A DNA stretch of 64,000 nucleotides from Ignavibacteriota bacterium (lineage in GTDB: Bacteria > Bacteroidota > Ignavibacteria > UBA10030). Position 1 is the stretch's first letter, and every line of letters begins with the position of its first letter. The DNA is taken from assembly GCA_003170475.1 (NCBI GenBank), contig PMZI01000055.1, forward strand, positions 124,001 through 188,000. The letters are read 5' to 3'. This document shows, one piece after another, positions 58,092 through 59,138 of the stretch. The notes beneath the pieces were generated by a model. That model did not search any database. It had not been told where the DNA came from and saw nothing but the letters and a program-made list of their open reading frames with translations. The translations under genes and the position numbers were made by a program.

Positions 58092-58106
58092 TGGAAAGTC
58101 GGGTTT

Positions 58107-58141
58107 GGTGAATTGGTGATTGGTGAATTGGTGATTGGTGA
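58107..58141. repeat. 15-bp tandem repeat upstream of proS
   Basis: The 15-mer ggtgaattggtgatt occurs twice (58107-58121 and 58122-58136), followed by a 5-base remnant. It lies just 5' of the proS start on its upstream side. Confidence 0.85.
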
Positions 58142-58236
58142 CGCGGAATTTGGCAAGAAATTCGACACCGAAGAAGGACGGTGAGCGTTCACCTGCGTGA
58201 AGGCCGCATCAAATCAAAAATCGGAAATGCTTTCGG

Positions 58237-58311
58237 TGCCCCCGAGACGATTCGAACGTCCGACCTCCGGTTTAGGAAACCGCTGCTCTATCCATGCTGA
58301 GCTACGGGGGC
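58237..58311 (-). tRNA. tRNA-Arg (CCT anticodon)
   Basis: 75 nt. Acceptor GCCCCCG/CGGGGGC, D-arm GCTC...GAGC, anticodon loop TTCCTAA giving CCT, T-arm GGACG-TTCGAAT-CGTCT. The anticodon stem has a G-G mismatch at 27-43, where G-C is usual. CCA is not encoded. The 5' half of this gene is repeated in the array that lies upstream of it. Confidence 0.93.
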
Positions 58312-59013
58312 GAATAAGATCTGGGTTGCTCTCCCTTGTTCGTTTAGTCCCGTCCTCGGCGGGATTCTCAAAGTGGCAGTGACCGTGTCATCACTTCGCT
58401 CGACAAGTGCCGCCACTTTGGATGAAACCGCTGCTCCCCGCCCGAACGACCGATACAAGCTCATGATCCGTTCGGTCGGGCGGGTATCCATGCTGAGCTA
58501 CGGGGGCGAATAAGATCTGGGTTGCTCTCCCTTGTTCGTTTAGTCCCGTCCTCGGCGGGATTCTCAATGTGGCAGTGACCGTGTCATCACTTCGCTCGAC
58601 AAGCGCCGCCACTTTGGATGAAACCGCTGCTCCCCGCCCGAACGACCGATACAAGCTCATGATCCGTTCGGTCGGGCGGGTATCCATGCTGAGCTACGGG
58701 GGCGAATAAGATCTGGGTTGCTCTCCCTTGTTCGTTTAGTCCCGCCTTCGGCGGGATTCTCAAAGTGGCAGTGACCGTGTCATCACTTCGTACGACGAGT
58801 GCCGCCACTTTGGAAGAAACCGCTGCTCCCCGCCCGAACGACCGATGCAAGCTCCTCTTCCGTTCGGTCGGGCGGGTATCCATGCTGAGCTACGGGGGCG
58901 AATTTGGTTCTCAAATGTAAATCCGACAGGATCCGCTGTTCCCCGCCCGAACGACCGATGCAAGTTCCTCTTCCGTTCGGTCGGGCGGATATCGATACTG
59001 AGCTACGGAAGCG
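58312..59013 (-). repeat. tandem array of tRNA-Arg 5'-half copies with palindromes
   Basis: Three nearly identical 196-bp units and one degenerate one follow the tRNA-Arg gene on its 5' side. The tRNA 5' end sequence recurs at 58485-58507, 58681-58703, 58877-58899 and, degenerated, 58990-59012. In each copy tRNA bases 1-23 and 24-36 (the last about at anticodon base 34) are split by a 48-bp palindromic element (58437-58484, 58633-58680, 58829-58876, 58942-58989) with arms CCCGCCCGA and TCGGGCGGG. The remainder of each unit holds a second dyad (CAAAGTGGC, 58369-58377, with 58412-58420) and a short GC hairpin. The copies lack any tRNA 3' half. Confidence 0.9.
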
Positions 59014-59138
59014 TGTTTTCTACAAGTTACTGAAAAATGCATGGCCTCGCAAGAGTGATGTTTCGCCGAAAGGCTACGCACAGAATCATGATTCCCTGTG
59101 CTGCTTCCGTTTCTCGGCTCAAACCCAAATTGACCCTG

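Follow-up and report, generated by a model that had tools for sequence, protein, structure and literature searches.

A tandem array of hairpin-interrupted tRNA-Arg(CCT) 5' halves in an Ignavibacteriota genome resembles a nuclease-less form of proposed tRNA-targeting GIY-YIG elements

In the window, the 64,000-nt stretch of an Ignavibacteriota bacterium contig (PMZI01000055.1) analysed here, a tRNA-Arg(CCT) gene called by ARAGORN on the minus strand (Rfam tRNA score 59.1 bits) is preceded by a 196-bp tandem array that TRF detected with a score of 1146. Along the minus strand, the order is an upstream gene, a promoter-like stretch (TTTTTCAGTAACTTG), a remnant 4, units 3, 2 and 1, the intact tRNA (58311-58235) and proS. 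The array comprises three units of exactly 196 bp (58312-58899) and an older 113-bp remnant, each unit running from tRNA nt 1-23 through a 48-bp hairpin and tRNA nt 24-36 to a 112-bp spacer (Table 1). In the Rfam scan the tRNA alone passed, the CRISPR-DR58 and plastid matches being at chance level. A short tandem repeat (TTGGTGAATTGGTGA) is located between proS and the tRNA at 58105-58141.

Table 1. Coordinates of the tRNA-Arg(CCT) gene, the array and the promoter-like motif in the window
Feature	Coordinates	Strand	Remark
Intact tRNA-Arg(CCT)	58235..58311	-	Sequence same as in sister species G003
Unit 1, 196 bp	58312..58507	-	Abuts the intact tRNA directly
Unit 1, tRNA nt 1-23	58485..58507	-	Identical to intact gene
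Unit 1, 48-bp hairpin	58437..58484	-	Between A21 and G22 (standard numbering), D-loop
Unit 1, tRNA nt 24-36	58424..58436	-	Last base C34 of the anticodon
Unit 1, 112-bp non-coding spacer	58312..58423	-	One long and one short hairpin
Unit 2, 196 bp	58508..58703	-	Hairpin 58633-58680
Unit 3, 196 bp	58704..58899	-	Hairpin 58829-58876; 10 differences from unit 1
Remnant 4, oldest, degenerate 5'-half copy	58900..59012	-	Hairpin 58942-58989; without the 112-bp spacer
Promoter-like TAACTTG	59023..59029	-	Upstream of the whole array; aligned to the sister-species region just upstream of the tRNA; putative promoter

The first-pass annotation had described four copies of the first 36 tRNA bases in 196-bp steps, which is accurate for units 1-3, whose two tRNA parts are both identical to the intact gene and stop after C34, but not for the fourth copy, which lies 113 bp away, has no spacer and is degenerate (4/23 mismatches in the first tRNA part). 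Its further observations that all copies are interrupted at one D-loop point, A21^G22 in each, and that the tRNA 3' half is missing from every copy were borne out. The interrupting sequence (CCCGCCCGACCGAACGG-...-CGGTCGTTCGGGCGGG), annotated as a 48-bp palindrome, is indeed a GC-rich hairpin of that length but an imperfect one, with two conserved internal mismatches, and matches to its arms number 10 in the window versus 1.8 expected by chance. The spacer carries a long hairpin (AAAGTGGC...GCCACTTT) and a short one (TCCCGCC..GGCGGGA, also given as GAGAATCCCGCC..GGGA). A search of the whole own-genome assembly found the spacer core motif confined to the window array, so that the spacer is not a repeat dispersed through the genome. 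Between units 1 and 2 there are 2 differences in 196 positions, and between units 1 and 3 there are 10, while remnant 4 has a hairpin most like the one in unit 3 (2 differences, versus 6); divergence thus rises outward with distance from the intact tRNA. The proposal of palindrome insertion followed by tandem amplification describes this structure and is partly right overall.

In the sister species G003, whose proS is 91% identical, tRNA and proS keep the same order with no array between the upstream flank and the tRNA. This flank (TTTTTCCGTAACTT) aligns to the stretch just upstream of the entire window array. As the G003 flank and tRNA align on either side of it, the array was gained between the upstream region of the native tRNA and the intact gene. 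The same alignment fits the prediction that the copies are co-transcribed with the tRNA, since the sister's upstream stretch, a putative promoter, matches beyond the whole array. The tRNA-proS order without an array also occurs in other genera, and a single independent unit (L180) stands at this tRNA in G015, from another genus of the same family, with the copy cut at the same base and followed by the same spacer type. Alignment of the broken copy at the own-genome tRNA-Thr with the sister revealed a 158-bp insertion, with homology restarting at R57, and the sister has copies at Val and Ala that are missing from the own genome, the native flank resuming after the Ala copy; both genomes have thus gained copies in a lineage-specific way. 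Precisely bounded empty and filled alleles, a hallmark of homing elements, are found in G003 versus the window and in the lineage-specific copies at other tRNAs.

A census of the own genome, taken over tRNA genes regardless of hairpins, uncovered an adjacent broken copy at 13 of the 44 genes called by ARAGORN: Arg cct, Arg tcg, Arg acg, Thr cgt, Met twice, His, Ser cga, Ser tga, Asn, Gln ttg, Gln ctg and Ala cgc. By inspection, all 13 copies carry at least one GC hairpin. This is the sole count free of hairpin or nuclease selection, most loci outside the census having been fetched by match to the hairpin or the nuclease. At L109 (1400-1515, own contig C26), a tandem repeat made of the first tRNA-Gln(ctg) bases and a CCCCGCC..GGGG hairpin stands directly upstream of the intact gene.

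The hairpin family has conserved arms (CCCGCCCGAACGACCG / CGTTCGGTCGGGCGGG), which include the two internal mismatches, and a variable loop of 13-19 nt in most matches. The genome search suggested by the first-pass annotation found it elsewhere in the own genome, and it is present in 13 of the 150 genomes searched, own genome counted; in a pattern search of the named collection, it came mainly from Ignavibacteria and other Bacteroidota, with one Omnitrophota record. The annotation had allowed that the palindrome might occur nowhere else and the array be strain-private noise, which is ruled out by the recurrence of both hairpin and array architecture in other genomes. Within broken tRNA copies the hairpin occupies either the D-loop (GGATA^GAGC), in 5' parts upstream of Arg tRNAs, or the T-loop (GGTTC^RA), in 3' parts downstream of other tRNAs. 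A GTTC-plus-hairpin pattern gave 21 matches in 12 of 98 genomes and none in the reversed control, and in 20 of the 21 the hairpin sits in the T-loop of a broken tRNA copy with an intact tRNA nearby. When all hairpin families found in the relatives are considered, T-arm inserts fall exactly at C56^R57 in 11/12 cases, this one position being occupied by different families. Some families are double hairpins with three-base loops, seen in Ser, Leu and Pro copies of relatives, while the window hairpin is single. In the broken Gln and Gly copies L104, L149 and L168 the anticodon arm is missing; in L104 it is replaced, not interrupted, by a hairpin (TCCCGTCAGCTTGCTGACGGGA).

The same hairpin occurs in the own contigs C29, C58 and C83 inside what appear, from the flanking core sites, to be attC-like integron sites. 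These putative attC-like sites of apparent integron cassettes lie at L005 1510-1556, L006 1510-1556, L007 79-125 and L016 1507-1553 (own C58, C29 and C83), and L006 additionally bears a composite hairpin (TCCCGAAGGGATCCTCC...GGGA) similar to the ones seen in copies of Ser tRNAs. Because it is found at sites without a tRNA, the hairpin family can move or spread on its own. As a general rule for hairpin placement, insertion into loops of DNA hairpins was not supported, flank complementarity being not above that of random sites (1/24 at p<0.05).

A small GIY-YIG-family ORF (Pfam PF01541; the closest structures solved are 1YWL and 1ZG2) comes directly after several of the hairpin-interrupted 5' halves, and a profile search detected GIY-YIG genes in 29 of 33 genomes. 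Among 91 distinct GIY-YIG domains from the fetched loci, 70 are situated within 400 bp of an intact tRNA, against a chance rate of ~1.2%, and all 70 are on the strand of that tRNA, with 36 lying downstream and 34 upstream. On the side of the ORF facing away from that tRNA, 58/70 have a fragment of it with 11 or more exact bases, compared with 1/70 in a reversed-tRNA control. The linkage extends across the phylum, where 22 of 24 further loci have a tRNA within 400 bp, and each of these is on the strand of its tRNA. The nuclease tree requires 25 changes of tRNA isotype versus 59 in shuffles (0/200 shuffles as low); a target site specific to the nuclease clade, another trait of homing elements, is therefore seen in the nuclease-bearing relatives, in which clades track isotype.

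Hairpin and nuclease also appear together in single elements. In three genomes a Ser(gga) element consists of a nearly full tRNA copy with a T-loop double hairpin (conserved as TGCGCC-nnn-GGCGCA TCCGCC-nnn-GGCGGA), a GIY-YIG ORF and the intact tRNA, and as the two are kept together in all three, they travel as one module. Closer to the window, L031 features a hairpin of the window family at the same D-loop site, a 5' half reaching nt 33, a GIY-YIG gene and an intact tRNA-Arg. No GIY-YIG gene is present inside the window units, whereas anatomically matching units elsewhere do contain one, and the own genome encodes two Arg-linked GIY-YIG ORFs (C7). At the related loci the end points of broken copies range from nt 11 to nt 82, so that no single cut site is established; 3'-half copies lying downstream of tRNAs in mirror image, and nearly full-length ones, occur as well.

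Comparable tandem arrays were found with and without the nuclease. In G260, a genome assembled as one contig of 3,665,746 bp, L282 consists of three identical 323-bp units followed by an intact tRNA-Ser, each unit joining nt 1-16 of tRNA-Ser, hairpins, nt 22-35, where the copy is cut in the anticodon loop, and a GIY-YIG ORF. L281 has three units with a GIY-YIG ORF, the ORF farthest from the tRNA being broken by a stop, then an intact tRNA-Arg(acg), and its D-loop hairpin is of the CCCGCCCGA type at GAATA^GCGC; L283 is the mirror-image arrangement, downstream of a tRNA-Leu. Nuclease-less arrays include L025 (Ser, 86 bp, 3.2 copies) and L219 (G004:C185), in which two tandem 3'-part tRNA-Met units with T-loop hairpins lie downstream of the intact tRNA-Met and mirror the window array. 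L135 (Pro) shows a 133-bp tandem repeat. A longer series, at L280 629-3524 (G190:C34), has eight tandem 364-bp units each with a GIY-YIG ORF, and no tRNA was found nearby. In anatomy the window array corresponds to L281 and L282, except that a non-coding spacer stands where they have the ORF. The concern that the array is an assembly artefact is weakened by the identical architecture in the single-contig G260, which rules this out as a general explanation; the exact copy number in the window is as assembled and may still be affected.

Since the same layout, often with a GIY-YIG gene, stands beside many tRNAs across the phylum, the array looks like an enzyme-less tRNA-homing element, and it is probably a nuclease-less, tandemly grown form of a tRNA-targeting GIY-YIG element of the homing type. 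The full unit would consist of a broken tRNA, interrupted by a hairpin at the D-loop site A21^G22 or the T-loop site C56^R57, and a GIY-YIG gene on the tRNA's strand, beside an intact tRNA, with unit and tRNA probably both driven by the tRNA promoter. The nuclease is expected to cut the cognate tRNA gene, and repair would copy the element in, leaving the native tRNA broken on one side and an intact tRNA on the other. Recutting of the intact tRNA, repaired out of register from the adjacent unit, would add one unit beside the intact gene; as each added unit would enter next to that gene, the newest units should be nearest the tRNA. In the window, the 112-bp hairpin spacer would take the place of the nuclease gene, and the GIY-YIG genes at the two other own Arg tRNAs may have acted in trans to make the array grow. 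The hairpin probably belongs to the element. Both of its favoured sites adjoin the tRNA elbow contacts (G19-C56 and neighbours), from which it may be that the hairpin blocks folding, processing or recutting of the broken copy.

The wider reading is put forward more tentatively, namely that tiny phylum-wide elements of Bacteroidota-type bacteria may place isotype-specific GIY-YIG genes in tRNA loci and leave hairpin-interrupted copies behind while an intact tRNA remains, that their arrays grow, and that nuclease-free derivatives are mobilised in trans. Several points count against a homing-type origin: the lack of a nuclease in the window units, the many own hairpin-bearing copies without an adjacent GIY-YIG gene (Thr, Met, His and Ser(cga)), the varied end points of broken copies, the presence of the hairpin family at sites without a tRNA, and the need for the intact tRNA to escape repeated cutting. 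For the three near-identical units, ordinary unequal recombination without any nuclease could suffice.

A competing explanation, unlikely though deserving of weight, is that mobile hairpin repeats (REP-like or double-hairpin-like) enter redundant, tandem-duplicated tRNA copies, with the GIY-YIG genes as passengers and growth by unequal recombination. It is favoured by the occurrence of the same family at non-tRNA and attC-like sites, by the copies with no GIY-YIG gene nearby, and by the sharing of C56^R57 among different hairpin families. The strict positions within the tRNA, the joint conservation of hairpin and nuclease in the Ser(gga) elements, and the isotype-specific clades with 70/70 same-strand linkage speak against it, and a general insertion into DNA hairpin loops, for which hairpin flanks would have to be complementary, is unsupported.

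Repeats of part of a tRNA next to an intact one form the classic att footprint, and 3'-part copies downstream retain the native flank; nevertheless, shrunken relics of tRNA-targeting integrative elements with tyrosine-integrase att repeats are very improbable. Such repeats go with an integrase gene and are usually of the tRNA 3' end, whereas the units here are tandem, 196-bp 5'-half copies interrupted by hairpins and without an integrase ORF, upstream 5' halves are at least as common at the related loci, and identical small units bear GIY-YIG ORFs instead. It is hardly probable, too, that the array is retained for function, as a structured leader, decoy or processing-control RNA co-transcribed with tRNA-Arg(CCT). 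Its place between the promoter-like stretch and the tRNA and the fold of the unit, more stable than shuffles (z -2.7), are compatible with such a role, but the array is missing in the sister species and in most relatives with the same tRNA-proS arrangement, and the fold stability is explained by the hairpins alone. Reverse transcription and integration of a tRNA 5' half, raised by the first-pass annotation from the cut at the anticodon, can be dismissed as extremely improbable, because this cut is common (the three window units, L180 and L282) but not general among broken copies with so many end positions, 3'-half and near-full forms, and no link to a reverse transcriptase, in place of the GIY-YIG link, was seen at the related loci.

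If the homing-type reading is right, tRNA genes, which are among the most conserved targets of any genome, are entered by chromosomal nuclease elements without killing the cell, with clades separated by isotype and with hairpins left at exact positions of the displaced copy. This would tie the evolution of tRNA genes to homing endonucleases and mobile hairpins, allow repeated homing and tandem amplification to be studied in a simple bacterial system, and account for the unusual tRNA fragments and the contig breaks next to tRNA genes in these genomes.

A search of the open-access literature returned no description of such chromosomal elements and no biochemistry of their nucleases, and the class appears to be undescribed on bacterial chromosomes. 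The nearest parallel is offered by SegB of phages T4 and T6 and other free-standing GIY-YIG homing endonucleases, in which a nuclease is likewise tied to tRNA genes; T6 SegB causes a tRNA segment to be amplified in tandem, acting both in cis and in trans (PMC13096335). SegB differs in belonging to a phage instead of a chromosome and in that the amplified T6 segment has a full-length tRNA, the text consulted makes no mention of hairpin-interrupted half tRNAs (PMC13096335), and the window units have no nuclease. The double-hairpin elements of fungal and sponge mitochondria are also short GC-rich single or double hairpins spreading into RNA genes (PMC2800124), whereas those described here are bacterial, sit at fixed tRNA positions in broken copies and often accompany a nuclease gene. 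What the att repeats of integrative elements have in common with the array is a partial copy standing next to a tRNA that is intact and restored. Like the hairpin, REP elements with RAYT transposases are short palindromes dispersed in bacterial genomes, but no GTAG tag was seen, and RAYT/REP mobilisation was ruled out, as the own RAYT locus L174 is flanked by a different palindrome of the GCCCCGACCTTAAGGTCGGGGC type. This locus (1412-1995, own contig C42) encodes a RAYT-like Y1 transposase with GCCCCGMCCTTAAGG-type palindromes on both sides.
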